Positions 13,819 through 62,300 of a stretch of 64,000 nucleotides of DNA are shown here, one piece after another (position 1 is the stretch's first letter; each line of letters begins with the position of its first letter). The stretch comes from an uncultured Mesonia sp. GTDB taxonomy: Bacteria; Bacteroidota; Bacteroidia; Flavobacteriales; Flavobacteriaceae. The translations under genes were made by a program, and so were the position numbers. Under the pieces are notes generated by a model that saw only the letters and a program-made list of their open reading frames with translations, did no database searches and was not told the origin of the DNA. The stretch spans positions 49,379 to 113,378 of the forward strand of contig CATQIB010000001.1 in assembly GCA_958296185.1 (NCBI GenBank), read 5' to 3'.

Positions 13819-16800
13819 ATGAAAAGAATTAAGCTTTTTTATGTTTTCTCACTTGTATCACTCATTGCTAACTCTCAAGACGCATTTACCAAATACGATA
13901 ATTTACATCAAAACTATTTCTTGGCACCAGAGGTTAAATCTTTTTTGCAGACAAACTTAACCTCTAATGATATGGTATCTGGTAAAATAGGTCTTACACT
14001 ACCATTGTATGAAATAAGATCTGGAAGATTGAGGTACCCAATACAGTTAAGTTATAATTCTGGGGGTGTTAATGTTAATCAAGAATCCTCCGAGGTAGGG
14101 CTAAATTGGAGTATTTCTAAGTCAGTTATTATAAGAAAAATTATGGACGGACATGATTTTGACAATAAGGGCTCTCAGTTTCTTGATCCTGTAGGAGGAG
14201 GTTTTTCTGTAAATAGTACCGAACATGATGATGATTGGAATTGGAGTAGAAAAAAAATGGGTTACTTGCTTAAAACCAAACTCAATTTCTTAGCAGATCC
14301 AGATATATCAAATGTAGATGACTTGCCTGACATTTTTACCTTTTTAAGTGCGGATGGCTATAATACTAAATTTTATTTAAAAAATTATAATACTATTGTA
14401 GAAATGACAGAAAAAGAATCTTTGTTCACGTTTGATACAATTAAAAAGTTTTATAATAATCCTGAATACGCATCCAATTCTTTTTATCCTGAATTCCCGA
14501 TGCGCGATATAAAGAAAGTAGTTATTAAAGGTAATAATGGAATTGAATACACTTTTGAGCATTTTGATGTTTCAATAACGAGAACAGAATACCTTGGAGG
14601 GTCATATTATCAACTCGCTGATATTTCACCACAGGTTAGCGCTTGGCATATTAGTAAGATTGAAGATATCAGAAATGGTGACAAGATAGAGTTTGAATAT
14701 CAAACATATAATCCTGATCCGATAAATTCAGAATATACTTATCCAAACTCTCCTATACCAGCAGGTTTAAAAGTCTTAAACTATACTAAAACTTTTCCGC
14801 ACAAAACTTGGCTGAACGATAATTTTATAAAAACTGCCTTTTCATCTATTGAGCAATCTATTGGTTATTACAGTACTCTGCAATCAGCCCAGCACAAGTT
14901 GAAATCCAATTTTTATACATACACTAGATTTCTTCAAAAGAATAAATTAACGAAGATTAAGTTCAATAAAGGAGTAGTGGTTTTTAATTGGTCAAATCGT
15001 CAAGATTTGTACGGAGATTATAAGTTAGACAGTATTAATGTATACAATAAAAAGGTTAATCCTGTCTTGGGGAATAGGGTGCGAAAGATTAATTTTAATT
15101 ATGGATACTTTAGTTCAAATAGCGGATGCAGAGATACTTATCTGTGTAAACGTTTGAAACTTAAAAGTTTGATTTTAGATGATTTGAAAGAATATTCATT
15201 TAATTATTATGATGAATACTCACAAACCTTTCCCAACAAGGAAAGTAATAGGCAAGATTTGTATGGGTACTATTCGAGTAACGTGAACGGAAATACAGAC
15301 TCACCAGATTTATATTTCTATCCAAATAAAAAGGAACTTTCTCTATTACCATTTAATATTCCGTATGTGGAAAGGTATCGAGTACCTGGCACTCATACTC
15401 TTACGTCCTCTTCCTTAGAGGATGTAAGAAAATGGACATTGTCTTCAATAAAACATCCAACAGGGATACTGGAGAGTTTTGAATATGAATTGAATGATGT
15501 TAATATTTTTAACCAAGACGTTATTACATCAGGGTTAAGATTGAAAGAGAATTTTTTTGAAAAAGAAGGAAAAACTATTCGGAAGTATAATTATTTATAT
15601 AAGAATGAAGCGGGGAAGAGTTCAGGTGTTTTAACACAGGTGCCAATTTTTGGTAAGCCAAATGCAATTATAACTCAATCAGATTTGCGAAATTGGAATC
15701 AAGAGTTAATCCACGAAACTTTTACAACTCACTCTATTCCAGCAATTTTTAGTTTTAGCCCTAAATCCAATTTGCTATATAATAGAGTTACTATGAAAGA
15801 GTCTGGAAACGGCTATGTGATAAATCATTTCACTACTTCTGACGAAAAGCCAAACATATACGATAGAAGTCCAATTTCTTCTCAAAATCTAAATGATTTT
15901 ACTGACGTAACACACATACCTAATTATCTATTGAATAATAGTTCATTTGGTTCAAATTTTTATCTAGATAACTCATTTCAAAGAAGAAAGCTATTAAAGT
16001 CCCAAACCTTTAATGAATCTGGGGATCTTTTGAAAGAGATTATAAATGTTTATAGCGAGAATTCAAGTTATTTTAAGGATGATTTTACAAAACGATTGTT
16101 TTTTAAACAGACACTTGGTTTTGATAATGATGATTATGAAAACGTAATCGATGTAAATATTGGCTACAAAAAAGAAACTTTAAAACTAGTCGAAACTACA
16201 GAAAAAAATTATTTTAATGAAGGAACTATAAACTCTAGTTTGACCTATACTTATAACCAGTTAGGACTATTATCGAGTTCATCCATGAAGTCTAATGAAA
16301 ATGAAGATAAATTTCACATTACCAATTATGTATATGGAATAGATACGGATAATCAATCAATAAAGAATACCCTCTCAGGCCTTCACTATCTTTCTAAAAT
16401 GCTCCAAAGAGAAGTTTTAGTTGAAAAAGACAACAATAAGATTTCACTTGAAAAACATGATATAGCTATTGATGCAAATGGTTTTGATAAACTTATCAGG
16501 CGTAGTAATAAAAGCTCTACTTATTTTCCTGAAAAAGAGATAACCAGGCGAGATAATAGGGGTAATATTTTGGAATACATCAATAAACAAGGACAAATTA
16601 TTTCTCTAATTTACGGTTATGGTTATAGTAACCCAATAGCAAGGGTAGAGAATGCTTCTTATGCACAAATAGCTTCAGCAATGAATGCAACTGTAAACTA
16701 TGTAAAAGGGCTTGATGAAACAGACATGTATCTAATAGACAACTTAAGAAATAAACCAGAAATGAAAGAAGCTAGAATAACAACATATACTTATAAACCT

Positions 16801-16938
16801 TTGGTTGGAATTACAAGAATACGAGATGAACGTGGTAGAGCAATAAATTACGAATACGATGATTACAATCGTTTAGAATTTATCAAGGACCAAGCCGGAA
16901 ATATCATTGAGGAGAATAAATATAATTATAAAGACTAA
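13819..16938 (+). CDS. RHS cassette 1: secreted YD-repeat partner protein
   Basis: The 1039-residue protein has a Sec signal peptide (residues 1-19, ending SLIANSQ). An N-terminal SpvB/TcaC-like region follows, recognised by GLTLPLYEIRSGRLRYPIQL, YNSGGVNV and VGLNWSISKS. Then there is a long beta-rich body and, at the C-terminus, YD/RHS repeats (YKPLVGITRIRDERGRAINY, YDDYNRLEFIKDQAGNIIEE). It ends without a toxin tip and without a T9SS sorting domain. The DUF6443-RHS gene starts 32 bp later, and the same gene order is seen in cassettes 2 and 3. By analogy with the shells of Tc toxins it may help cap or encapsulate its RHS partner; that role is inferred. Confidence 0.8.
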   Translation: MKRIKLFYVFSLVSLIANSQDAFTKYDNLHQNYFLAPEVKSFLQTNLTSNDMVSGKIGLTLPLYEIRSGRLRYPIQLSYNSGGVNVNQESSEVGLNWSISKSVIIRKIMDGHDFDNKGSQFLDPVGGGFSVNSTEHDDDWNWSRKKMGYLLKTKLNFLADPDISNVDDLPDIFTFLSADGYNTKFYLKNYNTIVEMTEKESLFTFDTIKKFYNNPEYASNSFYPEFPMRDIKKVVIKGNNGIEYTFEHFDVSITRTEYLGGSYYQLADISPQVSAWHISKIEDIRNGDKIEFEYQTYNPDPINSEYTYPNSPIPAGLKVLNYTKTFPHKTWLNDNFIKTAFSSIEQSIGYYSTLQSAQHKLKSNFYTYTRFLQKNKLTKIKFNKGVVVFNWSNRQDLYGDYKLDSINVYNKKVNPVLGNRVRKINFNYGYFSSNSGCRDTYLCKRLKLKSLILDDLKEYSFNYYDEYSQTFPNKESNRQDLYGYYSSNVNGNTDSPDLYFYPNKKELSLLPFNIPYVERYRVPGTHTLTSSSLEDVRKWTLSSIKHPTGILESFEYELNDVNIFNQDVITSGLRLKENFFEKEGKTIRKYNYLYKNEAGKSSGVLTQVPIFGKPNAIITQSDLRNWNQELIHETFTTHSIPAIFSFSPKSNLLYNRVTMKESGNGYVINHFTTSDEKPNIYDRSPISSQNLNDFTDVTHIPNYLLNNSSFGSNFYLDNSFQRRKLLKSQTFNESGDLLKEIINVYSENSSYFKDDFTKRLFFKQTLGFDNDDYENVIDVNIGYKKETLKLVETTEKNYFNEGTINSSLTYTYNQLGLLSSSSMKSNENEDKFHITNYVYGIDTDNQSIKNTLSGLHYLSKMLQREVLVEKDNNKISLEKHDIAIDANGFDKLIRRSNKSSTYFPEKEITRRDNRGNILEYINKQGQIISLIYGYGYSNPIARVENASYAQIASAMNATVNYVKGLDETDMYLIDNLRNKPEMKEARITTYTYKPLVGITRIRDERGRAINYEYDDYNRLEFIKDQAGNIIEENKYNYKD

Positions 16939-16970
16939 TCATCAACTAAGCCAGTCAAAAAAACTAAAAG

Positions 16971-19900
16971 ATGAAAAAAAATATATTTTTTATTTTATTA
17001 CTCCTTTCAATACATTTTATATCCAAAGCACAGAGCAGTACAGAAAATTACATACACACTAAAACGTATAAGGTTGAAACTACTAATGGTAATGTTAGTT
17101 CAGATAACATTCTAGAAAAAGTTGCTTATTATGACGGTCTAGGTAGGTTAAAACAAACTGCGAGAAAAAGTGGTAAGGATGGTGATAGGGTTGTTATTAT
17201 TCCTGTAGAATATGATGAGTATGGCCGTCAAACCAAAGAATACATGCCGTATTCAAAATATAGAATGAGCAGCACTGCTTTAGATTTTGAATCAAACAAC
17301 CTGGTTATTTCTGAATCAGAAAATTATTACACTAGTCAATACCCTAATGAACTTAATTCAAATAGTCCTAACGTTTACAGTGAAAAGTCATATGAAAAGT
17401 CTCCCCTAAGCAGAGTATTGGAGCAAGGAGCCCCAGGGAAATCTTGGGAGCTTACAAGCAGCAATGCAGACCATTCTATTAAGTATGCTTATGAAACAAA
17501 TATTGAGAATGAAGTTATTTATTTTAAAGTTAATTTTAATGACCCAAATAATACGGAAAAACCTAGCTTAATAAGAGAAGGTTTTTATATAGAAAACCAG
17601 TTATTTAAACAAGTAACAAAAGATGAAAATTGGCAGCCAAATCAAATCTTTCCTAATGATCATACGACACAAGAGTTTACAAATAAGGAAGGTCATCTGA
17701 TTCTAAAACGTACATTTAATAAGGGCATAGCACATGATACTCACTATATTTATGATGATTATGGAAATTTAACTTACGTTTTGCCTCCTGATAGTTACAC
17801 CACAGAAGTACATAATGAATTAATATATATATATCATTACGACACAAAAAACCGTTTGATTGAAAAAAAAATACCAGGAAAAGGTTGGGAGTTTATTGTA
17901 TATGACAACCGAGACAACCCTGTACTTACTCAAGATGCCAAATTAAGAAGTGTTAATGATTGGCTTTTTACTAAATATGATAAACTTGAACGGATTATTT
18001 ATACAGGTAAGCATCATTATTTACCGAAAGATACTCTTTATGAGAGTCAAGCACGGATAGAATTACAAAGCTTATTAAATAGTGAGAGTTTTTCGAACAG
18101 AGAAAGTCGAATTACTAATTCGTTACCTATTGATGGACCATCTTCCTTTTATTATACCAATAACCACTACCCAACATCGAACATAGAAATATACACTGTC
18201 AATTATTACGATAAGTATTTGAATGTGAGTGACACAAACGGAAACATTTTTTCTATACCAAATACAGTTGAAAACCAGTTGGTAAATCATGAAAGTTCAG
18301 GCTTACAAACAACTAATGTTGGACTAAAGTTAATCAATAAAACCCGTGTTTTAGGCACTAATGACTTTATTACAACGTTTAATGCCTTTGATAGAAAGGC
18401 TAGGTTAATATATAAAGCAATAGATAATCCATTTTTGCAAACACAGGATGAGTATAAAATTAAATTAGACTTTATCGGTAATGAGCAATACACAATTCAC
18501 ACTCATAATAGGTCTGGTAAATCACCAATCGTAATTACTGATGAGTTTAACTATGATTATGAAAACAGGCGTGTCTCGCATTTTCAAAAAGGATTACATA
18601 GCTTAATCTCTTCAAAAGAAAAAATTTATAGAAATGTATATGGTAAGCAGGGTAATTTGATTACAAAATATATTGGAGGTACTTTCCATAATATTAAGTC
18701 AGCATCTGGTCAAATTATACCCAATTATCATTTGCAAAAAATTGATTATAATTATAATATAAGAGGTTGGTTGACAGGGATTAATGAAACGCCTCTTATA
18801 GAAGAAGATTTATTTGGTTTTAATTTAGAATATGATAAATCTTCAATCTCACAATATAACGGTAATATAGGCTCAACAAGTTGGATGACTGCTACAGACT
18901 CACCAGGAATGTTATCTAATTCTGTTTTAAGACGCTATACATACAGATACGATGCTCTTAATCGTTTAAATAGTGCAAACTATACGGCTACATATATGCG
19001 TGCTTTTTTGAATGAGGATTATAGTTTAAGAGATGTTACATACGATAAAAGAGGTAATATTATTAATTTAAGTAGGATTGGAAAATTACATGATTCCCAA
19101 GGTAACCCTATATCCAGCTATCATAATGATCCTAATAATTTTAATTATATCGATAGGTTGACATACACTTATAAGCCTCATAGTAATACTTTAAGAAAAG
19201 TAGATGAAACAGCATCATCATATGATGGGTACAAGGAAAACACAAGCTATATAGAAGATTTCTCTTATGATGTTAATGGGAATATGATTGAAAATAAAGA
19301 TAAAAACATTACAGAAATTACTTATAACCACTTGAACCAGCCTCAATATGTACAATTTGGTCCTTTTACTGAAAATGGGACCGATTATTTAGGGGCCGGG
19401 ATAGAGTATGTGTATACAGCTACAGGAGAAAAAATACAGAAAAAAGTTATTAAATACAAACCTGATTCAAGGCCTTTTTTCAATCCAATAGTTGATTATG
19501 TAGAGGGAGTTATATATGAAAATTCAAATTTAAAATTTATTAATCATCCGGAAGGATATGCTGAGCCTAAAAACACTTTTGATTATTCACTTGGTTTTGA
19601 TTATATTTATCAATATAAAGACCACTTAGGGAATGTAAGATTAAACTATAAAGAAGATTTAACTGTTAATGTAGAAAATATAGAGGAGAGTGTTTTCTAT
19701 GATAATTTAGATGATAGTAGTGGTTGGGATAGTGAAGGGGCTTTATATGGTACTTTTGGTAATATTGTGAATGATTTTGGATACTCCGGCAATAATTCCG
19801 TGAGATTAAAATCAATTGATCAAAGCGTATATGCTCATAGCAATACTTGGGTTGAGATAGATAATCCCCAGACTACAACATATAAATTTTCAGGTTATAT

Positions 19901-21065
19901 GTATGTCACATCAACTGGACCATCTAATTCCTGCTACGCACGACTGTTGTTATTTATGAATGAGAATGAAGAACAAAGTTATTATACGAACGTTGTACAC
20001 GGAGAGAGACAGTACACAAAGGGACAGTGGGTGTATTATGAGGAAGAAGTAGATGTCCCTGCTAATATTGATAAGATTAACTTGCGGATAGACCTCGGAA
20101 GGAACACGTCTGGGAATTTTTCAGCTTGGTTTGATGATCTTAAAATTGAGCGAATATTAAAACAAAAACCTACAAAAATTTTAAAAGAGAATAATTACTA
20201 TCCTTTTGGACTTGAACATAAAGGGTACAATAATGTCGTGAACGGTACTGAAAACAATTATTTTAACTACAATGGTAAGGAGCTGAATGAAAGTCTTGAT
20301 CTGAATATGGTCGAGATGGACTGGAGACAATATGACCCAGCTATTGCAAGGTTCAATGTTGTTGACCCGTTGGCCGATTTCGCTAACCAGGTTGATAAAT
20401 CACCATATTCATTTGGTTGGAATAACCCAATTTTATATAGCGACCCATCAGGTCTATGCCCTGAATGCCCTAACCCATCCGACTATAATGAAGGGGATAC
20501 TTATGAAATTAATGGAGAAGTCTACGTAATTGATAGCACTGGACAATGGTCGAGGCAAGGAGGTGAGTTGGAGGCTTCTATCATTACCGCCCCCGCTGCT
20601 TCTAGTGATGATGAATCAGAGCTCACTACAGGTATGATGCCATCTTCATCTTATGATTATTCCAGTGAAGTTATACCTGGAAAACAGGATCAGGATATAA
20701 ATTTCATTTTAAATGGTTATGAACCGGGTATGGACACTATGCTTCATAGATTAGTGGCTATTTTGGATAGGGATTATAATGCAGATACTAACTCACAGGA
20801 AATGGTTGAAGTTTTGACTTTGACTACACCTTTTAAGGTCAAAGGAAAAAGCATTAATAGCAGTGTAACTATACCAAAAAAATTTAAAAAAACTAAAGAA
20901 TTTGGTAGGCAACATGGACAAGAAGTCTATAAATACAAAAATAAATATTATTCTCCTGATGTAGATTCACATAACGGCGGAACTTGGAAAGTCTTTGAAA
21001 AGAAAGGTGGCAAATTGGTTAGAATTGGAACAGCAGATGAAAATTTAAAAATCTTTAAAAAATGA
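16971..21065 (+). CDS. RHS cassette 1: DUF6443-RHS protein with Ntox21-like toxin tip
   Basis: After a signal peptide (MKKNIFFILLLLSIHFISKAQ), residues about 25-280 match DUF6443 (YYDGLGRLKQTARKSGKDGD, LEQGAPGKSW). YD repeats follow (YDALNRLNSA, YDVNGNMIEN). A jelly-roll-like insertion of about 160 residues (near 900-1060) separates YKDHLGNVRLNY from NYYPFGLEHKGYNN. The RHS core ends at VDPLADF...NPILYSDPSGL, the usual self-cleavage region. The tip is about 200 residues, and its last 60 (HGQEVYKYKNKYYSPDVD, HNGGTWKVF, RIGTADENL) resemble the Ntox21 predicted RNase family. The stop overlaps the ATG of the DUF3885 gene. Delivery to rival bacteria is inferred from the family. Confidence 0.85.
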   Translation: MKKNIFFILLLLSIHFISKAQSSTENYIHTKTYKVETTNGNVSSDNILEKVAYYDGLGRLKQTARKSGKDGDRVVIIPVEYDEYGRQTKEYMPYSKYRMSSTALDFESNNLVISESENYYTSQYPNELNSNSPNVYSEKSYEKSPLSRVLEQGAPGKSWELTSSNADHSIKYAYETNIENEVIYFKVNFNDPNNTEKPSLIREGFYIENQLFKQVTKDENWQPNQIFPNDHTTQEFTNKEGHLILKRTFNKGIAHDTHYIYDDYGNLTYVLPPDSYTTEVHNELIYIYHYDTKNRLIEKKIPGKGWEFIVYDNRDNPVLTQDAKLRSVNDWLFTKYDKLERIIYTGKHHYLPKDTLYESQARIELQSLLNSESFSNRESRITNSLPIDGPSSFYYTNNHYPTSNIEIYTVNYYDKYLNVSDTNGNIFSIPNTVENQLVNHESSGLQTTNVGLKLINKTRVLGTNDFITTFNAFDRKARLIYKAIDNPFLQTQDEYKIKLDFIGNEQYTIHTHNRSGKSPIVITDEFNYDYENRRVSHFQKGLHSLISSKEKIYRNVYGKQGNLITKYIGGTFHNIKSASGQIIPNYHLQKIDYNYNIRGWLTGINETPLIEEDLFGFNLEYDKSSISQYNGNIGSTSWMTATDSPGMLSNSVLRRYTYRYDALNRLNSANYTATYMRAFLNEDYSLRDVTYDKRGNIINLSRIGKLHDSQGNPISSYHNDPNNFNYIDRLTYTYKPHSNTLRKVDETASSYDGYKENTSYIEDFSYDVNGNMIENKDKNITEITYNHLNQPQYVQFGPFTENGTDYLGAGIEYVYTATGEKIQKKVIKYKPDSRPFFNPIVDYVEGVIYENSNLKFINHPEGYAEPKNTFDYSLGFDYIYQYKDHLGNVRLNYKEDLTVNVENIEESVFYDNLDDSSGWDSEGALYGTFGNIVNDFGYSGNNSVRLKSIDQSVYAHSNTWVEIDNPQTTTYKFSGYMYVTSTGPSNSCYARLLLFMNENEEQSYYTNVVHGERQYTKGQWVYYEEEVDVPANIDKINLRIDLGRNTSGNFSAWFDDLKIERILKQKPTKILKENNYYPFGLEHKGYNNVVNGTENNYFNYNGKELNESLDLNMVEMDWRQYDPAIARFNVVDPLADFANQVDKSPYSFGWNNPILYSDPSGLCPECPNPSDYNEGDTYEINGEVYVIDSTGQWSRQGGELEASIITAPAASSDDESELTTGMMPSSSYDYSSEVIPGKQDQDINFILNGYEPGMDTMLHRLVAILDRDYNADTNSQEMVEVLTLTTPFKVKGKSINSSVTIPKKFKKTKEFGRQHGQEVYKYKNKYYSPDVDSHNGGTWKVFEKKGGKLVRIGTADENLKIFKK

Positions 21066-21547
21066 TAGAACCTAATGAAATAGATCTAAAGTTAAAAGAA
21101 ACTTTTGGTTTAAAAAATTTTTTATCTTTAACTAATTTAGACAAGAGGAACAGGGTTGAATTAGGTCAGGATTATGACGGAAGCAAAAGAATTAAAGTAG
21201 CAGTAACTAAAGCTATTGAAGAACTAAATTCATGCTTTAAAGGGGAGAACTTATGGTTGAGAGTTATTTTGTGGGATAAGACTGATGAAAAAGACTTATT
21301 GAATCCGGTTTTGGAATCTATAAAGGAAAACTTGAAATATAGCTTGATTGAAGACAATAGCTTTATACTGTATTATTTTTTTGATATTTTTGATATTGAC
21401 AAAATAATTACATTAGTTAAATCAAGCATTTATTATGATTTAGGTATAGAGCCTTCTATCAATATTACGTGTTTTTATTTTAATTTAGAAACACAAATTT
21501 TAGTAAATATATATGATGATCGGGGAATGGATATTGTGGAGATATAG
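21062..21547 (+). CDS. DUF3885 candidate immunity protein
   Basis: The 161-residue cytosolic-looking protein has no signal or membrane helix. It matches the DUF3885 pattern: NRVELGQDYD early, a helix plus WLRVILWD in the middle, and the C-terminal signature DLGIEPSINI followed by IYDDRGMDIVE. The ATG overlaps the toxin stop (ATGA), the standard arrangement of a toxin and its cognate immunity gene. It probably binds and blocks the Ntox21-like tip. The family assignment is strong; the immunity role is inferred from position. Confidence 0.8.
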   Translation: MIEPNEIDLKLKETFGLKNFLSLTNLDKRNRVELGQDYDGSKRIKVAVTKAIEELNSCFKGENLWLRVILWDKTDEKDLLNPVLESIKENLKYSLIEDNSFILYYFFDIFDIDKIITLVKSSIYYDLGIEPSINITCFYFNLETQILVNIYDDRGMDIVEI

Positions 21548-21760
21548 CAAATAGTTTTGTTAAATCTTATCCTAATGTTGAGATATAATTGCAAAACTTC
21601 TTAAAAGTATTTTTTTAAATTATATAATAAGTGATGTAGCAAACGGGCTCTTTGCTAAAGCATCTTTTCTTAGTGTGTGAAAATCATTAAGCTAACAAAA
21701 TAAAACTTCTTATAAAGCCCTCCTACTTTCGTGCTTTGAAACAATAAAAACTCCTTAGAA

Positions 21761-21841
21761 GTTATAAAATAAGACTTTTGTATCTTTATGTGTATTAAAC
21801 TGGTGCCGTTTATTTGCAATTATGGATTGTAAGAATTGTAA
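21761..21841 (+). mobile_element. IS1-family left-end remnant 1
   Basis: The segment contains a leader and TTTATTTGC promoter-like site followed by ATGGATTGTAAGAATTGTAA, the first codons (MDCKNCK) of an IS1 InsA. It then runs directly into the orphan toxin tip. It resembles the corresponding part of remnant 2 at 22420-22520 over about 80 bp. Confidence 0.6.
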
Positions 21842-22078
21842 GGGAGAGTTACAAACGTAACTAAATCTCAAAGTACAATTTGGAAAAAATTTCAAAGTGC
21901 CAATGTAAATGGAAGAAAGATGTCAGGAAAAGGAAAAAAAAGGAAATATTATGAATGGGATCATACACATAATGATATAGAGGTTTATAATTTTCGTGGG
22001 ATTCATTTAGGTTCAATGAATCCTCAATCTGGTAAGATGTACAAGCCTGCTGTAGATGGAAGAACAATTGATCTTTAA
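21842..22078 (+). pseudogene. orphan colicin E3-type rRNase toxin tip
   Basis: This frame is open from 21842 to TAA at 22078 and has no upstream start; stops precede it in the IS1 remnant. The first ATG is at 21920. The translation contains GKGKKRKYYEWDHTHNDIEV, then GIHLGS and a C-terminal DGRTIDL. This matches the cytotoxic domain of colicin E3, which cuts 16S rRNA in the decoding site. The catalytic spacing is preserved: Asp in YEWD, His three residues later, Glu seven residues later, and the terminal Arg. It is a detached RHS tip lying downstream of cassette 1, ready to recombine with an RHS core. Expression without a start is unlikely. Confidence 0.8.
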
Positions 22079-22089
22079 AAAGTTTTAAT

Positions 22090-22371
22090 ATGAAACATTG
22101 TTGCAATAAAATGAATTTTTTCATAAAGGAAAGTAAGTTAGCAATAGGGTATAATGCTAAGTTCAGGGAATATTTTATTGACTTAAAAAATACCGATGGG
22201 AAACAGTTAATATGCTTTTGTCCTTGGTGTGGCTCTGCTTTACCTGAAAGCTTATTGGATCTGTGGTTCGATATATTAGAAAAACAACACAATATCGACG
22301 ACCCTCTACATGATAGAGATAAAATTCCAGATGATTATAAAACTGACACTTGGTGGAAAGCATTAAACTAA
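22090..22371 (+). CDS. DUF6980-like candidate immunity protein for the E3-type tip
   Basis: The 93-residue protein begins MKHCCNKMNFF, has a second cysteine pair in CFCPWCGSALPESLLDLWFD, and ends DDYKTDTWWKALN. This pattern matches my recollection of the DUF6980 family, small zinc-knuckle-like proteins common beside polymorphic toxin tips. It starts 11 bp after the orphan E3-type tip, so it is the likely cognate immunity gene. Retaining an intact immunity gene next to a broken tip would protect the cell against siblings that still deploy the toxin. The role is inferred. Confidence 0.65.
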   Translation: MKHCCNKMNFFIKESKLAIGYNAKFREYFIDLKNTDGKQLICFCPWCGSALPESLLDLWFDILEKQHNIDDPLHDRDKIPDDYKTDTWWKALN

Positions 22372-22419
22372 TCCAAAACCTTACCTTTAGTACTTGCAAA
22401 TTATAAAGGTTTGCTAGAG

Positions 22420-22940
22420 GTTATAAAATAAGACTTCCATATCCCTATGTGCAGTAAACGGGTGCTTGCCTATATTTGCAATTATGGATTGTAAAAATTG
22501 TAGTAGTCCCAATTGTATCAAAAAGGGAAGACGAAATGGGAGACAACGCTATTTTTGTAAAAACTGTAATTTTAATTTCAGTTAGATTATAGTTATAATG
22601 CCTATAAGCCGCAAACGAATATATTAATAAAAGACTTATTAAAAGAAGGCTGTGGAGTAAGGAGTATTTCCCGAATTATGAATATTTCCAGAAAAACTGT
22701 CCTTTCTAGAATGCTGAAAATAAGTAAACAAGCCAAAACTCCCTATTTCAATACGCTAGAGTGTAAGTTTGAAGTTGATGAGATGTGGACATACATAAAA
22801 CGAAAAAAAGATTTCACTTGGATTACTTATGTAATAGAGAGAGAATCAAAAACAGTAATTGATTTTTTTATCGGTCGTAAATTAAAGGATAATATAAAGT
22901 CCTTGATTAACAAGGTAGTTATTTTCTTAAAGAAAACCTC
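22420..22940 (+). mobile_element. IS1-family transposase remnant 2 (5' part)
   Basis: A promoter-like TATATTTG at 22471 precedes ATG at 22484, which encodes an InsA zinc-ribbon start (MDCKNCSSPNCIKKGRRNG, YFCKNC). The frame breaks near 22580 and resumes as LIKDLLKEGCGVRSISRIMN and FEVDEMWTYIKRK (InsAB helix-turn-helix and DDE start). It ends near NKVV at about 22920-22940 without the 3' half. The ORF track's 1012-residue frame begins inside this remnant; those first 106 residues are not part of the RHS partner. Confidence 0.75.
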
Positions 22941-22961
22941 CTCAGTCTTAAATTTTTATTT

Positions 22962-22969
22962 TAGGTTTG
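22962..22969 (+). promoter_or_regulatory. -7 element of RHS cassette 2
   Basis: TAGGTTTG matches TAnnTTTG 26 bp before the ATG at 22996, just after the IS1 remnant. This supports the start chosen for the partner gene. Confidence 0.5.
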
Positions 22970-22995
22970 TACAATACTTACATTACTATTTCTGT

Positions 22996-25900
22996 ATGAA
23001 ATTAAAACAAATTATGCCTATAATGTTTTTATTGGCAGCTTTTTTTTCTAAAAAATCATATTGTCAAATCCAGTTACAGAATGATAAACCCGAATTTGAA
23101 AAAGTGGTTTACCCTTCACCTACTGTTCAGGCTTTAGATGCTTTTAGTGAAGTTCCGGTAAATCATTACACAGGTGTTCCAGATATTAATATCCCGTTTT
23201 TTAATGTTAAAACCTTAAATAATAAAAAGGCCTTAAATTTGAATTTAAGGTATCACCCTTCTAATGTGAAAGTTGAACAAATACCAGGTTGGGAAGGTTT
23301 AGGTTGGTCATTATCTGGCTTAGGAGCAATTTATAAGAATATAAACGGTATTGATGATGAGAGTTATGTAGATGGTGGTGTTTATAACGCAAACAATCCA
23401 TTTGATAGTGAGTTCTTTGATTATAACGAGAATTTCATTTCTAGTACTTTAGGAATGAACGATGAAGAAATATATGACAGAAATTTTTTTCTGTATAATG
23501 CGGGTGTAAAGCATAAATTTGATACTAGTTACGATCTATACAACTTAAATTATGGAAATTTACAGGCAAAATTCTATGTAAAAAAATTAAATAACAATTA
23601 TTTAGTAAAACCATTGTTTTTAGATCAAGTTTTAGATATAAATGTATTGTCTGATACTTATGTTAATGGGAAGTTATATATAAAGGGTTTTGAAATTATT
23701 GACTCAAATGGCTTTAAATATTTGTTCGATGAAAAAGAAGAGGTTTTTATTTCCTCTGAAACCTATAGCTACACTGATGTAGAATCACGAAATATAGATC
23801 ATAGAAGTAACGTAAATGCTTTTTGGATTCGACAGATAAAAGGGCCTAACGATAATATTCTAATATCATTCGATTATGATATCATTAAAGAAGAGTATGC
23901 TAAAAGCAATGTTTCAAAATACAATGCTTTTCAAAATTTTATGAATCCTTGGTCCGATCCAAAGTATAATTCTCCACCTCGTCCAGGTAATAGTCTGCCG
24001 CGTCCGATTAATAGACCTTTGGGATTGAAACCTAATATGATTGCAAATTTTCTTTATTATACCGTCGATTCGAAAAAAATAAGTCATATAGACATAAAGG
24101 GGGTTGGTGATGTATATATTAATTCAGAGGTGGGAAGACTAGATTTTAAGAATCCTAATGAGGCATCTAAATTATCTGAAATAATCATAAAAAATAAAGA
24201 TAGCGTTACAATAAAAAAGATAAAGTTTAACCATAGTTATAGAAGTCAAGCTGACCGTTTGGTTTTAAATAGTATTGATTTTGTTAATCCCGCTGGTCAA
24301 ACCGAGAAAAGCTACAGTTTTTTTTATAAAAATATAGATCAACTGCCGATTTTTGACTCCAAGGAAAAAGATATTTGGGGATACTATAATGGACCCAACC
24401 TAACTAATACTCCTCACACTTATACACCCAATGAGAACTTTACAGATATCGGGTTGCTTAATAAAATGATAATACCCTCAGGAGGTGCATATGTTTTTGA
24501 TTTTGAAAGTAATGCGTATGCATATGTCAATGATGATTTACAGGAGGATTTTCCTAATAAGAATAACGAGCAACTTGTCTCAAAAAAAGATACATACATC
24601 GGTTATCAAGATGAGGGGGGCCAGATGAAAAATATAATCTATATCAGCAACGATCAGGAAGTTAAATTTATTTTAAAAGCTTTAAGTTACAACACTAGTT
24701 TCCCAGAAGATAAAGCGTTTTGGGATTTTGATATAAAACCCGTGATAATTGATGAGTCTCAGGTAAATATCAATAATTATTTGCCAGGAAATTTTCAATT
24801 GACACAAATAGACAAAGATTACCTTATAGATGACCTATATAATTCTGCTACCCAAAATGGTAGACCATCTTATCGAATTAATGCAGGGGACTTTCAGGAT
24901 TATTTAAATATCAATAACTATATTAAGACATTTTTATTAAGAAAAGGCTTCTATATAATTGATTTCAAAACCTCAGATGTAAACCCTATAGCTAATAATT
25001 CTGTTACCTATGAATTAGAATATGATTTTTATCATCATACAAATGAATATAAATATATACCTGGTGGTGGAAATCGGATAAAATCTATCGGCTATTTTAG
25101 TGACGGAAATATATCTTCTTCATTTTTTGAAGATAGAAATAACTATCCCATTTCTAATAAACCTGATATCGAAATTAATTATGATTATCAATTATTCGAT
25201 GCCGAAAGTACCTCTAGTGGATCAATAATATCCCTACCAAAGGCAAATTACTATTTAAATCATAATTTCTTAGTAAAAAAAACTGCACCAGATGGTCGAG
25301 AGTTTTTTAATCCATACAGTGTGTCCTATATTGTTGAAAACGATTATAATGTTTTAGAAGGTATCCAAACACAAGGAAATTATGTGGGTTATAAAAATGT
25401 AAAAGTTAACAAGATTGAAGCAAATGTGACAATTGAGAACTTTTTTGATATAATCATAGAGAAATATGAAAATGGAGAGTCCAGATACACTTATAGTTCA
25501 CCTATGGATATACCTTTTACGAGAGACAGTGATTTTCCTTTCGTTGAGCAACCTTATCCACATTATAGAAATGGTAATCTTTTAAAGGTTTCAAACTTTG
25601 ATGCCAAAGGAAAACTTTTAAAAGTCAAGATAACCTTTATAATTATGAAGAAAATCAAAGAGTTTATGGTATTAAAACTTTTTTGCCCAATGGAGGATGC
25701 CCATGGTTTTTTTTGAATGGCTTTTCTTCAGATCCCGCTCCCTCATATTTTTGTAATTATCCTTATATCCCATATGTTATAGATTACCGAGCATTAAAGT
25801 ATACTTATGGTAGATCTGATCTGATCTTTAGAAAATCTACCAACTACTATTATGACAAAAACGAAAACCTCGCTGGCACCGTTGAGACTAGGGAGGAATT

Positions 25901-26654
25901 CGACTACGAGCCGTTTAACTATCAGCTAAGAGAACACCGAACTTACTTAAATGATAATAGCCAAGAGCAAGAGTTTATAAAAGTGTATAAATATCCTTAT
26001 AATCTTTTAAGCAATACTGATGGCCAGGGCCTCTACAACAAGCATCGCCTTAATGAGGTATTGGAAGAATATCTGTACAAGGACGGAAAACTTTTATCGG
26101 TACGCAGGAACGAATACTCTGAATTCCCTGTAGGCTCTGGTAATTGGTTTTTAAGTAAAGTGAAAACAGGCAAGTTCTCGGGGAACACCTTAGGCCTCAC
26201 TAAGCAACAGATCCAACAGCAACTGGAGGACAGACTGGAGTACGTGGAATACGATGACCGTGGAAACCCACTGGAGCTTCGCAAAGCGGAAGGACTGCCG
26301 GTAAGCTATATTTGGGGCTACAGCCAAGCCTATCCCGTGGCAAAGATAGAGGGAGCCTCCTTGGGAGAGGTGAAAACGGCATTGGGCATCAACCCTTCAC
26401 AGCCCATAGACCTTGGAGCTTCGGGGCTCACACCCTCACAGGAAAGCGCTTTGCGAAACAATCTGACTGGGGCCCTGATCACCACCTATGATTACAAGCC
26501 CTTGGTAGGTATCACCAAGATTACTGATCCAAGAGGTAAAAAGACTACCTATCATTATGGTAGTTTTAACCGTTTAAAAGAAATCAGGGATGAAAATGGC
26601 AACATCATCGAGGATTACGATTACAATTACCGACCAACAACAATTACCCCCTAA
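22996..26654 (+). pseudogene. RHS cassette 2: YD-repeat partner protein, single frameshift
   Basis: The real start is ATG 22996 (MKLKQIMPIMFLLAAFFSKK, a signal peptide), codon 107 of the track ORF. The body is homologous throughout to the 1228-residue partner of cassette 3, sharing for example EVPVNHYTGVPDINIPFF, LRYHPSNVKVEQIPGWEG and DQLPIFDSKEKDIWGYYNGP. At the A run 25620-25623 one base appears to be missing: frame 1 ends at 25716, while the homologous sequence continues in the other frame (QDNLYNYEENQRVYGI) to the stop at 26654. That second frame holds the C-terminal YD repeats (YKPLVGITKITDPRGKKTTY). Restoring one A gives about 1219 residues. It could be a true lesion, phase variation, programmed slippage or a sequencing error. 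Confidence 0.8.
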
Positions 26655-26664
26655 TCAACCAAAG

Positions 26665-29600
26665 ATGAAAAGAACTCTATTTATACCTACAGTGTTGCTA
26701 AGTTTAATTGGTTACGGTCAATCCCTGCCAACCGATTCGGAGAACTACGTACACACCAGAACCTATAAAGTAGAAACCACCACAGGAAATGTAAGCCCTG
26801 ATGAAGTCTTGGAAAATGTCAGTTATTTTGATGGTTTAGGTAGGTTGAAACAAACCGTTGTAAGGGGAGGCAAAGATGGGGACAAAGTAATTATCACTCC
26901 TGTTGTATATGACAGTTATGGTCGGCAGACAAAAGAATACCTGCCTTATGTAAAGCATAGGCCTACCACTACGCTCCTGGGTTATGAGAACAACGATGTG
27001 GTAATCCCCGAACTGGAGACGTATTATATCAACCAGTACCCCAATGAGATTAACCAGACTTCTCCCAACCCATACAGTGAAAAGGTTTTTGAACTATCTC
27101 CACTGAACAGGGTTATGGAACAGGGAGCCCCGGGAACATCTTGGAAGGCAGATGGTGCAAGTGATAATGACCACACCATCAAATTCGGTTACCAGACCAA
27201 CCAATTTGAAGAAGTTGCCTATTTCAAGATGGTTTTTCCCGATCCGCAAAATACCGAAGAACCGAAACTCTTTAGGGACGGTTATTATGCTACGGCACAG
27301 CTCTACAAACAGATTACCAAAGATGAAAACTGGCAACCCAACCAACTATACCCCAATGACCATACTACGCAGGAGTTTACCAACAAGTTGGGACAGGTGG
27401 TGCTCAAACGCACCTTTAATGAAGGTCAAAACCACGATACCTATTACGTCTATGACGATTATGGCAACCTGACCTATGTGCTTCCCCCGGGAAGCTTTTC
27501 AACAACAGATGATGTAATTGTTTATTCAAGACCAGAAGGAGCAATCAACTATCCTTGGACAAGGCTGGTAGAAGTTGATGAAGGATTGGCCGCGGAATAC
27601 GAACACCTTTTGGAGGATTATGACAACGAACAGATCTTGAACGTTGACCTATCTGCTGAATATGGAGGCCAGGGAGGTTTCAGCATTAGCCCTTCGAGCA
27701 ACGGGGAGGAGCTGATTTTCAATATCAACTTTACGGCAACAGAAGCTTTTGCGCTCCAGCAAGGACAATTGGTTTCTTTGGAAGAATTCGGAATATTCAA
27801 CAATACAGAATTAGGCAGGCTCGAAGGAGAGGGCTACAACTATATTTTCACGATTTCGGAAAATAATATCTTAATTAGAGGGGATGGTAAAGTTAACAAT
27901 ATCAACAAGGTTTTCTCTAGCGGGGCAACGTTGGCCTACAGTAAAAATTACCCTTGGGTGGATTATATGAATGTTGAACCAGAGTATGTCGATCAATATT
28001 ATACCGCTTTGGAAGGCTATGAGAATGAAGATATTTTAACGGCTATTGTTCCCAATGAGTATAATGGTCTAGGAGGTTTGAACATCAGTGTAAGTGAAGA
28101 CGATATTGTCACTTTAACGCTTAACAGTAGTTATACGGGTAGCTTTTCGTTAAGAACAGGAGTTGTTATCCCTTTAGAACTAGGTAGAAGTATTGAAGAT
28201 AGGATTTTGGGCACCATTGAAGGGGAAGGTTATGAGTATGTGTTCAGTATTTATGAAAACAACCTTCGCATAGAGGGGGAAGGTGTATTGGTTGGCCATA
28301 GTTATGTTTGGCAGGTTTCAAACCCAATGACCGTATCGCAGACAGATATCTATGACGAACTGATCTATATCTACCACTACGACCATAGGAACAGGCTTAT
28401 CGAGAAGAAAATACCCGGCAAGGGCTGGGAACATATGGTTTACGACAACCAGGATATGCCAGTACTTACCCAGGATGCCAATCTAAGGAGTACCAACGAT
28501 TGGCTGTTCACCAAATATGACAGGTTGGGAAGGGTGGCCTATACCGGAAGCCACCATTACGTTCCGAGCTCAGGCTCTACCGATGAGAACAAGGGCAGGA
28601 AAGAACTACAGGATATACTTGACAACGAAAACTTTACGGACAGGGAAGAAAGAACCACAACGGCAAACACTGTAGCAGGGGCAGGTTCTTTTTATTATAC
28701 CAATACACACTACCCTACTGCCAGTATCGATATCTATACGATTAACTATTACGATAGCTACCTTAACACTGGTGACCCCAATGGCAACATCTTTAGCGTT
28801 CCCACTACGGTAGAGGGTCAGTCCGTCACAACGGCTACACAGGGTTTACCTACGGTCTCCAAGGTAAGGGTCTTGGAGAGCAATCCGCCTCAGTTTATCA
28901 CTGTCCTAACGGCCTATGAGGAAAAGCGTTTGACAGCGGTTTATACCGCTACGGACAATCCTTATCTCGGGACACAGGATGAGATAAAGACCAAGCTGGA
29001 TGAAAATTTTATAGGTAAAGTCAAGTATACAAAGCACGGGCATTCAAAACAAGGAAAAAGCCCTATTACCGTTACGGATAGTTACACCTATGATTATGAG
29101 GGAAAACTAATAGAGCATACCCAAACAGGGCTCCACTCTACTTTGAGCAAGGAAAGATTGGTGCTTAACCACTACGATGAACTGGGGCAATTGACAAATA
29201 AAAAAGTTGGGGGAACCGCTCCGGTACTGTCACAGACAGTGGATGAACTCCAACAAGTAGACTTTAAGTACAACATCAGGGGCTGGTTAAAGAATATAAA
29301 CGACCCTGCCAATCTAGCGAACGACCTGTTTGCCTTTGGTATTGGGTATGACTCGGGACAAAATGCCCTTTATAACGGGAATATCAGCAGTACCAGTTGG
29401 AAGACCGCCACACCTCCAACAGGGCCTGGGTCTTCACCGGTTCCAGCAGATAGAGGCTATAAATACACTTATGATGCTTTGAACCGTATAAAATCTGCGG
29501 ACTACAGTGCGAGCTATACCACAGCCCAGGGAAGTTCTCTGTTGCCAGAAAATTACACCTTGAGCAAAGTCAAATACGACAAAAGGGGGAATATCATAGA

Positions 29601-31161
29601 ATTAGATAGAAAAGGTTTCAATGGATCAACGGCAGGTTATATAGATAAGTTTACATATACTTATATAGACAAGCTCACTTATACTTATAAGGTTAATAGT
29701 AATCTTTTGGAAAGGGTGGATGATATAGCCTCCTCTTTGGAGGGTTATCAGGAAAATATTAGTAACATCGTAGACTTTACCTATGACATCAATGGCAATT
29801 TGATTTCTGATAAGGAAAAAGAGATAACAGAAATAAGTTACAACCATCTCAATTTACCTTTGCGAATAAGTAAAAACAATGATAATGAAGGCTATATCGA
29901 GTATGTATATGATGCCACTGGGGTGAAACTGGAAAAGACAGTAACCGACCTAAGTACTTCTTCGGCATTGAGCACAGCTTATGCAGGTAATTATATCTAT
30001 GAAAACAACGAACTTAAATTTATAAGCCACCCCGAGGGGTATGCGCAACCAAAGGATGCTAGCGACTATGCTCAAGGTTTTGACTATGTTTATCAATATA
30101 AGGACCATTTGGGGAACGTCCGACTGTCCTACAGCGACCTCGATGGAAACGGTAGTATAGACCCGAATACCGAAATCCTTAACGAGAAAAATTATTATCC
30201 ATTTGGGCTTGAACATAAAGGATACAATAATGTCGTCAATGGCGTTGAGAATAACTATAAGCACTATCAAGGACAGGAATGGACAGAAGACCTCGGTTTA
30301 AATGTTCACGAATTTAAATTTAGAATAAGTGACCCAGCCATTGGAAGGTTCTGGCAAGTTGATCCATTAGCTGAAAAATTTGCACATAATGGAGTGTATA
30401 ATTTTTCTGAAAATAGAGTTATTGATGGCATAGAATTAGAAGGTTTAGAGAGGTTAGATTTTAGATATACTTTGGATGACAATGGTTATGCTCAATTTTC
30501 TAGTTTAACTATTGATTTTGAGCAAGACTTTAGCGCAAACTACAATCTAAATGGAAGAAACACTTCTTTTGAAACAATAAGTAAAATTAATGGATGGTCA
30601 GAGAATGACCCTGTCGTGCAGAAAGGGATAGATAAATTGCGTTCTGATAATGCTAGTAATGGAGGTAATTTTTCAGATAATTATTATGCTGAATTTGGAG
30701 GTTTCTTAATAAATAATTCAATACCATCAATGTCAAGTATAAGAAATGATAAAAATTCAATGGGAGCAATAAAAGATGGGGTTAGCAGTGTTACAGGTTT
30801 TTTGGATAATACCACAGGTTTTGGCAATGGTAAAGGAGCTCCTTTATTCCATCTCTACGAAAATATGGTAAGAAAAAATGACGACACTGGTTATGACAAA
30901 TTAATGCATTTTTCATTTACAGCTAAATATGCAACATATGGTGTAGGTTTGTTTATGGGAGAAATGAAAGAATTCTTTAAGGATGAAGTCCCTAGTTGGT
31001 TTGGTAATGATAAAGGTTGGGATAATATGGATATTAAAGCGAATCAGCGAGGTAATAGTTATATGCTAAATATTATTAGACAAATTGGAGCTAATGACCC
31101 AACATCTTTACACAATAGTTCCTTGTTTAATAATAATCTTAATAAAGGAAGAAGATTTTAG
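26665..31161 (+). CDS. RHS cassette 2: DUF6443-RHS protein with DKxxHF-type tip
   Basis: The start chosen is ATG 26665 (MKRTLFIPTVLLSLIGYGQS, signal peptide) rather than the track start, giving 1498 residues. DUF6443 comes first (YFDGLGRLKQTVVRGGKDGD, MEQGAPGTSW). A tandemly duplicated beta-rich module of about 2 x 120 residues is inserted after YVLPPGS. YD repeats follow, then the RHS core (YKDHLGNVRLSY, an EF-hand-like DLDGNGSIDPNTEIL, NYYPFGLEHKGYNN), ending VDPLAEKF and ENRVIDGIELEGLE. The tip of about 240 residues contains DKLMHFSFTAKYA, GEMKEFFKDE, DNMDIKANQRG. The constellation looks catalytic or metal-binding, but I do not recognise its family. A membrane-protein gene follows with no gap. 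Confidence 0.82.
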   Translation: MKRTLFIPTVLLSLIGYGQSLPTDSENYVHTRTYKVETTTGNVSPDEVLENVSYFDGLGRLKQTVVRGGKDGDKVIITPVVYDSYGRQTKEYLPYVKHRPTTTLLGYENNDVVIPELETYYINQYPNEINQTSPNPYSEKVFELSPLNRVMEQGAPGTSWKADGASDNDHTIKFGYQTNQFEEVAYFKMVFPDPQNTEEPKLFRDGYYATAQLYKQITKDENWQPNQLYPNDHTTQEFTNKLGQVVLKRTFNEGQNHDTYYVYDDYGNLTYVLPPGSFSTTDDVIVYSRPEGAINYPWTRLVEVDEGLAAEYEHLLEDYDNEQILNVDLSAEYGGQGGFSISPSSNGEELIFNINFTATEAFALQQGQLVSLEEFGIFNNTELGRLEGEGYNYIFTISENNILIRGDGKVNNINKVFSSGATLAYSKNYPWVDYMNVEPEYVDQYYTALEGYENEDILTAIVPNEYNGLGGLNISVSEDDIVTLTLNSSYTGSFSLRTGVVIPLELGRSIEDRILGTIEGEGYEYVFSIYENNLRIEGEGVLVGHSYVWQVSNPMTVSQTDIYDELIYIYHYDHRNRLIEKKIPGKGWEHMVYDNQDMPVLTQDANLRSTNDWLFTKYDRLGRVAYTGSHHYVPSSGSTDENKGRKELQDILDNENFTDREERTTTANTVAGAGSFYYTNTHYPTASIDIYTINYYDSYLNTGDPNGNIFSVPTTVEGQSVTTATQGLPTVSKVRVLESNPPQFITVLTAYEEKRLTAVYTATDNPYLGTQDEIKTKLDENFIGKVKYTKHGHSKQGKSPITVTDSYTYDYEGKLIEHTQTGLHSTLSKERLVLNHYDELGQLTNKKVGGTAPVLSQTVDELQQVDFKYNIRGWLKNINDPANLANDLFAFGIGYDSGQNALYNGNISSTSWKTATPPTGPGSSPVPADRGYKYTYDALNRIKSADYSASYTTAQGSSLLPENYTLSKVKYDKRGNIIELDRKGFNGSTAGYIDKFTYTYIDKLTYTYKVNSNLLERVDDIASSLEGYQENISNIVDFTYDINGNLISDKEKEITEISYNHLNLPLRISKNNDNEGYIEYVYDATGVKLEKTVTDLSTSSALSTAYAGNYIYENNELKFISHPEGYAQPKDASDYAQGFDYVYQYKDHLGNVRLSYSDLDGNGSIDPNTEILNEKNYYPFGLEHKGYNNVVNGVENNYKHYQGQEWTEDLGLNVHEFKFRISDPAIGRFWQVDPLAEKFAHNGVYNFSENRVIDGIELEGLERLDFRYTLDDNGYAQFSSLTIDFEQDFSANYNLNGRNTSFETISKINGWSENDPVVQKGIDKLRSDNASNGGNFSDNYYAEFGGFLINNSIPSMSSIRNDKNSMGAIKDGVSSVTGFLDNTTGFGNGKGAPLFHLYENMVRKNDDTGYDKLMHFSFTAKYATYGVGLFMGEMKEFFKDEVPSWFGNDKGWDNMDIKANQRGNSYMLNIIRQIGANDPTSLHNSSLFNNNLNKGRRF

Positions 31162-44484: not shown

Positions 44485-44708
44485 TATGATAGAGACGATT
44501 AGCAGTTGCGTTTCTCTGGGATTATTTGGGATATTCTAAATCTTCTGTTTGCTTAAAAATGCCCTTAGAGCACTACAAACTAATTTTTTTTAGTTGTATG
44601 TTTTTCAATTTGTAAATAGATAAAAAAATATTTTCATCTGTATTATTTTTAGTAAGTTTTGTAGATATTATGAATATTTTATTTATTTGCAGTTAAATTT
44701 TGAAAAAA

Positions 44709-47700
44709 ATGAAAAATTACTTAGTAGCCTTGATTGTTCTAGTTTTGTTTGAAACGAGTTTTGCACAAGGGCAAGGAGGGGGTATGGAGTTTGATAAAGT
44801 ATTGGGGCCTTCGCCTACAGTGCAATCCTTTGCGACTTTTCAAGAAGTTCCAGTGAATAATTATACGGGGATACCAGATATTAAAATACCGCTTTTTGAA
44901 ACAGAAACTTTAGGGAGTCAGCGTAAATTTACGTTGGCATTAAGGTATCATCCTTCTAATGTTAAGGTTGAGCAGGTGCCTGGTTGGGAGGGTTTTGGTT
45001 GGTCCCTAATGGCTGGCGGCGCTATATATAAATCTGTTTCAGGGGATGACGATGAGAATTATGTAAACAGTAAAGGTATGTATGGCGTTGAGAATCCGTT
45101 TGAGGAAGAATTTTTTGACTCATACGACCAATTTATTTATAATATTTTGAATTTTACAGATGATAGAATTAAACAAAGAAATAAGTATTTGTATGATGTT
45201 ACTTATTTAAATAAATACGACACAAGCTATGATCTATATAGCCTTAATTATGGCAGTTTGAGTGCTAAATTTTATATAAAAAAGCCCGGTGGAGTGCATA
45301 ACTATGACTATCAAATTGAATATCTCAGTAATGACAATAGAATAAAGATAAGTGTTATATCAGAACTTATTGGGGGCGCTCCGTATATAAAAGGCTTCGT
45401 GGTAACAGATGATAATGGTTTTGTTTACACTTTCGATCAAAAGGAAAAAACTGAGGTTATTACCGAAACTCAAACTATAAATTTTGTTCACGAGCCTCCT
45501 AATATGTCTAATTCATACGATACTTATTCAAGTGCATTCTGGGTGAGTGAGGTAAAGGATCCGCAAGGCAATGTTTTAATTGATTTCGATTATAATACCA
45601 TACTAGAAGAATATAAAAAAAATAATTTCATTCAATATATTTCGGAAGACCATCCTTATTGTACACCTATTGATAGCTTTGCTGTTTATACCGGATTGAT
45701 GCCTTATAATGTTTCTAATACCCTTTATACAAAGGTTACATCGCAAAAACTTTCCAAAATTGATGTAAAAGGCAAGTGTAAAGTGTATTTTACTACAGAA
45801 ACGGGTAGGATGGATATGGAAAATCCTAATGTTGCTGTGAGATTATCTCAAATTAATATAAAGAATTATGAAAATGAAACTATACAAGAAATAGAACTGG
45901 GACATTCTTACCGATCTCAAGCGCAGAGGCTCATTTTGGAAAAGGTAAGATTTTTTGATAAAAATCAGGAGTTGTCAAAAAAATATGAATTGAATTATAA
46001 TAAAATAGATCAGTTGCCTGCTTTTGACTCAAAAGAAAAAGACTTGTGGGGCTTTTATAATGGACCCAATGCTTCTGGAACGGCGCATAACTTTTTGCCT
46101 GACGAAAAATACTCAACGGTTGGTTTGCTTAATAAAATGGTTATTCCGACAGGGGGAGCCTATATTTTTGATTTCGAAAGTAATGATTATGCATTTGTAG
46201 CTAGCACCATGCTAGATGATTTTTTGAATCGCGAAAACGAACAAGAGATGGTTAAGAGTTTAAACTATAAAGGTTTTCAAGATGAATCGAATACTAATGT
46301 GGAAATTTTTTATATTTCTAACGATCAAGATGTGGTTTTTGATTTAGAAGCACTTAGTTTTAATCCAAATAGTTTAATAGATAAGGCCTTTTGGAGTTTT
46401 GATATTAGGCCTGTTAAGATTGATGAAAGTCAAGCAAATATTGATAATTATTTGCCCGGTCCATTTCAATTGTCATCAATCAATGAAAATTTCTTGTTAG
46501 ACGATATTTATTCAGGGGTGCTTCCAGGTGGGCGCTTTTTGAAAAAAATGAATTTAAGTAATTCACAGAATTTTCCGTCCGGGGTATCGCAGCACAATAT
46601 CTTTTTTTTGAAAAAAGGCTTTTATGCGATCAAGTTTTATCAAGATCCTGAGCAAACTATAGCCACAAACGGGGTAGAGTATAATTTGGAATATAAATTT
46701 ACAGCTAACACTAACCAATACAAGTACAACGTTGGCGGAGGTAATAGAATTAAGAGTATAGGTTATTTCGCAAATGCTGGCGTCTCTCCAAATTTTTTTA
46801 ATGATCGTGAATCGTATAGTTTAAATTACAAGCCCAAAGTAGAGGTTAATTTTAACTATAGGAGTTTTGAAGACGGGTCTATGTCTAGTGGTGGGGTAGT
46901 TTCAATACCTAGAAACAGTTATCCTATTAAAAATAATTATCTTTTTGAGATTCCTAGTAAATTTTTAAAGGATAGGCGTTCTCATGAATTTTTAGTGCTC
47001 GGTGATTATAACCTTATAGGCGGACTTCAAACCCAAGGTAGTTATGTGGGTTATAAAAATGTCGAGGTTAGTAAAGTAGTTACGGAACAAGAGGTTTTTA
47101 ATTCATTTGATATAGTTTTGCATAAATATAAAAATGGTGTTGTTGAGTATACCTATAGTTCACCGATAGATGTTCCTTATTATATTAACATAAATTATCC
47201 TTTTGTCAATGAACCTTATCCTCACTTTAAAACCGCAAATTTGTTGAAACAAGTTACAAAGGATCGTGCTAACAGAATACAGGTTGAAGAGAATTATGAA
47301 TATAATTACACTTTCAACGAAAAAATTTATGGTATAAAGTCTTATTATGTAAACGGCGGCTGTGAATTTTTTAGTAAAACTATTGGATTTGGATCTTATT
47401 ACAATGAATACTTAAGAGGTTTAGAGTCTGGACATCCTCAAAATACCTGTGGTTATCCACTATTTTTACGAATAATTGATTTTATGCCGATTAAATATAA
47501 ATACGGAAGAGCTGATTTAGTAACTAAGAAGACACGTAATTTTTTCTATAATGAAATCAATAGTGGTCTGCAGGATACGGTTACTACTACTACGTCCTTT
47601 ACCTATCACCCTTTTAATTATCAAATGAAGGAAAAGAAAAATTTCGTTACCAAAGAAGGAAAATCAATCGAAATACGGGAGGTGTATGATTATCCAAGTA

Positions 47701-48392: not shown

Positions 48393-48411
48393 ACTATAAC
48401 AGAGAGTAATT

Positions 48412-55690: not shown

Positions 55691-55698
55691 CCTATCTA

Positions 55699-56010
55699 CT
55701 AAATCTTTTTTGGATCTGATGTCCCAAACTTTTTTTTTAAAAGCTCACGTTGAATCTCCAATTCAACTTCCTTGTCACACAGAAGCTTACGAAGAACCCT
55801 ATTCTCCTCTTCAGCTTGTTTGAGTTCCTTGCTTCTATCGTCATAAGTTACTTTTAAACCCGCTTCTCCGTGATTCTCATACTTGCGTTTCCAATTGTAA
55901 AATGTACCAGTACTAAGACTGTATTTACGGCAGGCAGAAACAACTCCTATTTCTTCTGCACAGGATAGAATTTCAAGCTTTTCTTTTAAACTCCACTTCT
56001 TATATTTCAT
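55699..56010 (-). CDS. IS3-family transposase OrfA, copy B1
   Basis: The 103-residue DNA-binding protein has the helix-turn-helix KLEILSCAEEIGVVSACRKY and STGTFYNWKRKYENHGEAGL, and a leucine-zipper coil (KELKQAEEENRVLRKLLCDK). Near its 3' end a run of nine A (minus strand) offers slippage into the OrfB frame. Its protein sequence is identical to that of the B2 copy. Confidence 0.92.
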   Translation of the reverse strand: MKYKKWSLKEKLEILSCAEEIGVVSACRKYSLSTGTFYNWKRKYENHGEAGLKVTYDDRSKELKQAEEENRVLRKLLCDKEVELEIQRELLKKKFGTSDPKKI

Positions 56011-57106: not shown

Positions 57107-57116
57107 ATCTCCTCAA

Positions 57117-57488: not shown

Positions 57489-57494
57489 CCAAAG

Positions 57495-57962: not shown

Positions 57963-57971
57963 AAATTAATT

Positions 57972-62292: not shown

Positions 62293-62300
62293 CCTATCTA

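Follow-up and report, generated by a model that had tools for sequence, protein, structure and literature searches.

The 64,000-nucleotide stretch of DNA from an uncultured Mesonia sp. analyzed here, referred to as the window, includes a toxin-like frame without a start codon, followed by an intact small gene, downstream of a full-length RHS gene. A sequence-only reading had described this arrangement as a spare colicin E3-type toxin/immunity cassette. Orphan toxin/immunity cassettes, as well as E3-type tips on polymorphic toxins, are already known. The question raised by this locus is how its toxin tip came to be separated from a core and a start codon, and what use, if any, the pair still has.

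The frame extends from stop to stop over nucleotides 21842 to 22078 (+ strand, 78 codons) and, judged by its sequence, is an entire cytotoxic domain of the colicin E3 type. The profile search suggested by the sequence-only reading returned the Pfam family Cytotoxic (PF09000) with 45.2 bits over a cut-off of 22 (E=1.2e-11), and phmmer against PDB sequences matched the frame to colicin E3 (E=4.5e-6), which puts the similarity well outside what chance would give. A structure model generated with AlphaFold2 from an alignment of 12 relatives has a pLDDT of 91.8 across the 78 residues. The four top Foldseek matches to this model, each with prob 1.00 and E values of 1.1e-3 to 3.1e-3, are all colicin E3. 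Their superposition is moderate (TMq 0.53-0.54, rmsd ~5), and the next, unrelated match has an E of ~1, so that no PDB entry other than colicin E3 is matched with confidence. The characteristics of the domain include the residues Y37-E38-W39-D40, H43 and E47, located 3 and 7 positions after D40 as had been claimed, and R74, which is the fifth residue counting from the C-terminal end and not the terminal one as had been thought. Residues W39, D40, H43, E47, H55, and R74 are invariant in an alignment with colicin-type and stand-alone members, and D40, H43, E47, and H55 correspond to D55, H58, E62, and H72, the active-site residues of colicin E3 (PMC3482391). The tip retains 16 of the 17 columns that are invariant in its 11 nearest relatives, a value that several other members reach as well. 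Cleavage of 16S rRNA in the decoding centre is the predicted activity.

The gene located behind the frame (nucleotides 22090 to 22371, + strand) has its own ATG, which lies 11 bp past the toxin-frame stop, and codes for a 93-amino acid putative immunity protein. The earlier description of this gene as DUF6980-like was correct, since the protein matches PF22400 with 61.6 bits (cut-off 27). The cysteines of the family are kept as CC (residues 4-5) and CPWCG (residues 44-48), that is C4, C5, C44, and C47, and so is the C-terminal motif; the DGG[ST]S stretch present in most DUF6980 relatives is missing. The model of the protein has a pLDDT of 92.7, and a fold search of the PDB with it gave no convincing match, which does not imply that the fold is novel.

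To place the tip among its relatives, a tip-alignment scan of ~85,000 species genomes was carried out and yielded 80 loci. The closest relatives are 40-61% identical and in most cases form the C-terminal tip of a larger protein. As the sequence-only reading anticipated, the same tip occurs on RHS cores: Rhs_assc_core is fused to it at three loci (L021, L025, and L029), and at a fourth (L023) falls just below the cut-off. At L026 the tip is found on a FilH/CDI-type protein and at L022 it follows a PT-HINT end. A DUF6980-type gene lies directly behind nine of the 11 closest tips (L022-L025, L027-L031); Pfam confirmed PF22400 in all 8 neighbours tested, and L031 was assigned by motif only. The recurrence of DUF6980 behind tips across unrelated hosts is the normal signature of a cognate toxin and its immunity protein. 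The toxin/immunity assignment is thus upheld, and DUF6980 is likely the cognate immunity protein of the E3-type tip, which it would be expected to bind. A tree built from 86 tips places that of the window in a clade of 13 (support 100/99), 10 of which, the window counted, have DUF6980 directly behind them. The ImmE3-paired colicins and the stand-alone E3-like genes group elsewhere; the few columns of the alignment leave the branching order inside the clade unresolved. The nearest relatives come mostly from Pseudomonadota, whereas the window is from Bacteroidota.

Two tips of the DUF6980 clade are followed by related proteins of ~107 amino acids instead of DUF6980 (L021:6222-6545 and L026:6227-6544). 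These have no match in Pfam or NCBIfam and are probably another immunity family. Another close relative of the tip (L014), found in plasmid record CP079755.1, listed as Klebsiella, is annotated as a SAR2788-family toxin and adjoins an S8 peptidase; it has a Gram-positive look, and contamination of this record is possible.

DUF6980 is not always found beside unrelated genes, as the E3-linked loci demonstrate. It is also found apart from E3 toxins, in the trp operon (L007 and L008), as single genes (L006 and L105), and on Streptomyces plasmids (L017 and L018), so the family is not exclusively one of E3 immunity. The trp operon cases are a short form located between trpC-like and trpF-like genes in two Bacteroidota genomes (L007:1447-1695 and L008:1498-1869), from which it follows that immunity is not the only role of the family. 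The gene at L105:1321-1704 is one of several small genes in a row with similar spacers between them, an arrangement reminiscent of an integron cassette array.

The upstream boundary of the toxin frame coincides with insertion sequence DNA. A left-end remnant of the IS1 family including the first codons of insA (ATG 21822) occupies nucleotides 21726 to 21841 approximately (+ strand, 116 bp) and was recognized by its similarity to a second IS1 left end, to which it is 83% identical over 86 bp. The remnant stops where the toxin homology starts, and the stop codon directly before the toxin frame sits in IS1-derived sequence. Since homology to related tips extends back to residues 1-2 of the frame, the domain is present in full in the window, with no part of a core. 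A second IS1-family remnant, which consists of the left end, insA, and part of insB, is located behind the immunity gene (nucleotides 22385 to 22920, + strand; NF033558, 81.6 bits). The genome's only IS1-transposase pieces, 22490-22920 and 56072-56188, lie 33 kb apart and cover model positions 1-148 and 161-199, respectively; they are possibly one split element. We also considered a programmed frameshift from the insA start into the toxin frame, which insA meets in a different reading frame; this is unlikely, as their overlap (21842-21857) has no slippery heptamer.

The RHS gene upstream was correctly described as full length. It spans nucleotides 16971 to 21065 (+ strand), codes for an RHS/DUF6443 protein (PF20041, TIGR03696) with its own Ntox21 tip (PF15526) at the end, and is overlapped there by a DUF3885 gene (21062 to 21547, + strand; PF13021, 50.6 bits) that, from its position, is presumed to be the immunity gene for that tip. 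A pattern scan for terminators found none in the interval from the DUF3885 gene to the cassette, so that co-transcription of the cassette with the RHS gene is possible. The Bacteroidetes-type promoter element TAnnTTTG was searched for directly upstream of the tip and immunity gene and gave a single match (21552), about the number expected by chance. The window includes three serial pairs of large RHS/YD-repeat genes (13819-31161 and 44700-52872). The first gene of the second pair starts inside the IS1 remnant and is broken by a frameshift near nucleotide 25700, and no Pfam family matches the tips of the second and third pairs. Two copies of a two-gene transposase with an IS3-like look, almost identical to each other, are found at 54803-56010 and 61396-62612, flanking a pilus-like gene cluster (56375-61171).

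We consider it probable that the locus is an orphan toxin/immunity cassette in which an E3-type tip was cut from its core and start by an IS1-associated rearrangement and DUF6980 is the cognate immunity protein. The 78-codon frame would once have formed the end of a polymorphic toxin, which was probably an RHS protein rather than one with another core, a source that is not visible in the sequence itself. The rearrangement at the N-terminal border of the domain would have removed both the delivery core and the start codon, and the tip would then not be translated as a whole toxin. Lacking a translation start and a core, the toxin frame is most likely silent, and it was most likely acquired horizontally; the DUF6980 gene, with its own start codon, is putatively expressible. 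If expressed, its product would bind and block E3-type tips of the same subclade delivered by competitors; the present use of the cassette, if any, would be immunity. To the extent that its survival has been selected at all, immunity against E3-type tips is, by analogy with an orphan CDI tip of E. coli EC93 (PMC3150448), most likely the reason. A single genome does not suffice to retrace the mutational steps exactly, as the locus is missing from the samples of the genus (15 other genomes), and a sample of 397 genomes from the family yielded no further E3 domain.

A less probable reading, which nevertheless deserves some weight, is that tip and immunity gene are pure debris, unexpressed leftovers of a horizontally acquired cassette that was stranded recently and is intact only for that reason. 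The missing start, the IS1 fragments on both flanks, the fact that no other genome in the genus and family samples has the cassette, and the lack of the DGG[ST]S stretch in DUF6980 would all fit such an origin. On the other hand, the toxin frame is free of stops and frameshifts, an open frame of 78 codons being expected by chance at this base composition with p ~6e-4, and it retains its catalytic residues. The DUF6980 gene still has its start codon, together with the cysteines and the C-terminal motif that mark its family.

We regard as quite unlikely that the locus is a live small toxin-antitoxin pair, with the E3 domain made at low level and DUF6980 acting as antitoxin in the same cell. Codons 1-26 of the frame include no ATG, GTG or TTG, and translation would have to begin at a non-standard start or at the sole in-frame ATG preceding the catalytic motif (21920-21922, + strand, codon 27), the point up to which the earlier description of the frame as start-less holds. 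The 52-amino acid product of this ATG would retain D40, H43, E47, H55, and R74, all encoded downstream of it, but the N-terminal helix and the invariant W14 are lost. Stand-alone E3-like genes do exist in modules of toxin-antitoxin appearance elsewhere, but they form a separate clade (96/91) and have a partner other than DUF6980. The window cassette was rejected as a member of that group because it has no start, its partner is DUF6980, and it falls in a different clade.

These stand-alone ORFs, mostly 75-110 amino acids long and of the TWDSLHGEIEVFN type, make up 53 of the 86 E3 loci (L004 and part of L032-L100). An uncharacterised protein of ~105 amino acids with the motif ELHEFLGMxxxEY is found behind them and has no match in Pfam, NCBIfam or PADLOC. 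In 34 of 52 cases an M78 (HELGH) peptidase motif follows as well, at a constant distance of 525-561 bp, and the M78 peptidase of L004 resembles PADLOC's CapP. Together, the three genes form a toxin-antitoxin-like module present in many phyla with an E3 clade of its own.

If the word "spare" in the sequence-only reading is taken to mean a tip that can be recombined onto the neighbouring RHS gene, we find this highly improbable. A place behind a full-length RHS gene that carries its own tip would suit such a function, for which there is precedent: in Salmonella a start-less Rhs orphan is activated via recombination with the main rhs gene, a process for which shared core sequence is needed (PMC3967940). 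Here, no match to any RHS protein was found upstream of the tip in any frame (21540-21860), and the only long repeat adjoining the tip is IS1-derived. With an IS1-family remnant in that place, no shared sequence was found that would allow a swap of the tip onto the RHS gene; the orphan toxin/immunity character stands, "spare" in this sense is unproven, and the likeness to classical displaced Rhs tips is not supported. As background, a core remnant upstream of orphan Rhs or CDI tips is frequent, not required, and missing in some published orphans. Finally, a misjoin concealing an intact RHS-E3 gene has a negligible chance despite the draft, repeat-rich assembly (29 contigs), because the locus is interior to a 113-kb contig, the junction repeats are merely 74-97% identical to each other, and the genome yielded neither a second E3 domain or further copy of the locus nor a detached core end.

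Under the orphan-cassette interpretation, this is a well-documented case outside enterobacteria of a toxin tip that has no start and escapes ORF callers, with an insertion-sequence remnant exactly at the module border. It also gives DUF6980 a testable function, namely immunity towards one subclade of E3-type rRNases. In a broad survey, the immunity families given for Tox-ColE3 are Imm-Cloacin and Imm45 and do not include DUF6980 (PMC3482391), and no mention of DUF6980 was found in the non-subscription papers searched. The pairing of an E3-type tip with DUF6980 is therefore probably undescribed so far, yet it extends a known theme. A tentative further proposal, which could well prove wrong, is that DUF6980 represents an immunity family that has not been described before, probably binds zinc, and is dedicated to one distinct subclade of E3-type rRNases. 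Its fold would differ from that of ImmE3, and it would hence block the same enzyme in another way; the cassette in the window would be a functional orphan-immunity gene of this family in a Bacteroidota genome.

The closest parallels are the orphan rhs-CT/rhsI and cdiA-CT/cdiI modules, which share with the window a start-less tip and an intact immunity gene downstream of a full-length toxin gene (PMC3150448, PMC3967940). One CDI orphan of E. coli EC93 has a tip without a start codon that is transcribed; its toxin is apparently not made, while the immunity protein is made and protective (PMC3150448). As is the case for orphan rhs-CT/rhsI modules, tips homologous to that of the window are fused to full-length RHS proteins elsewhere. 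Unlike these orphans, the window tip has no RHS-core remnant or DPxGL/VENN-type motif, an IS1-family remnant being found in its place, and the core sequence that the Salmonella orphan shares with its main gene is missing. Tox-ColE3 of the polymorphic toxins is the same class of domain carried on RHS, FilH, and HINT proteins, and stand-alone cassettes were described in that survey (PMC3482391); the difference lies in the partner, DUF6980 in the window and not Imm-Cloacin or Imm45. The stand-alone E3-like genes have in common with the window a short E3-type ORF and a small gene downstream, but differ from it in that most have their own start codon, and in partner and clade. With the colicin E3 cytotoxic domain (PF09000) and its ImmE3 the window tip shares the toxin fold and the active-site residues; it is not carried on a colicin, however, and belongs to a separate subclade, of the YEWDHTHNDIEVY type, whose usual partner is DUF6980 rather than ImmE3/Imm-Cloacin.
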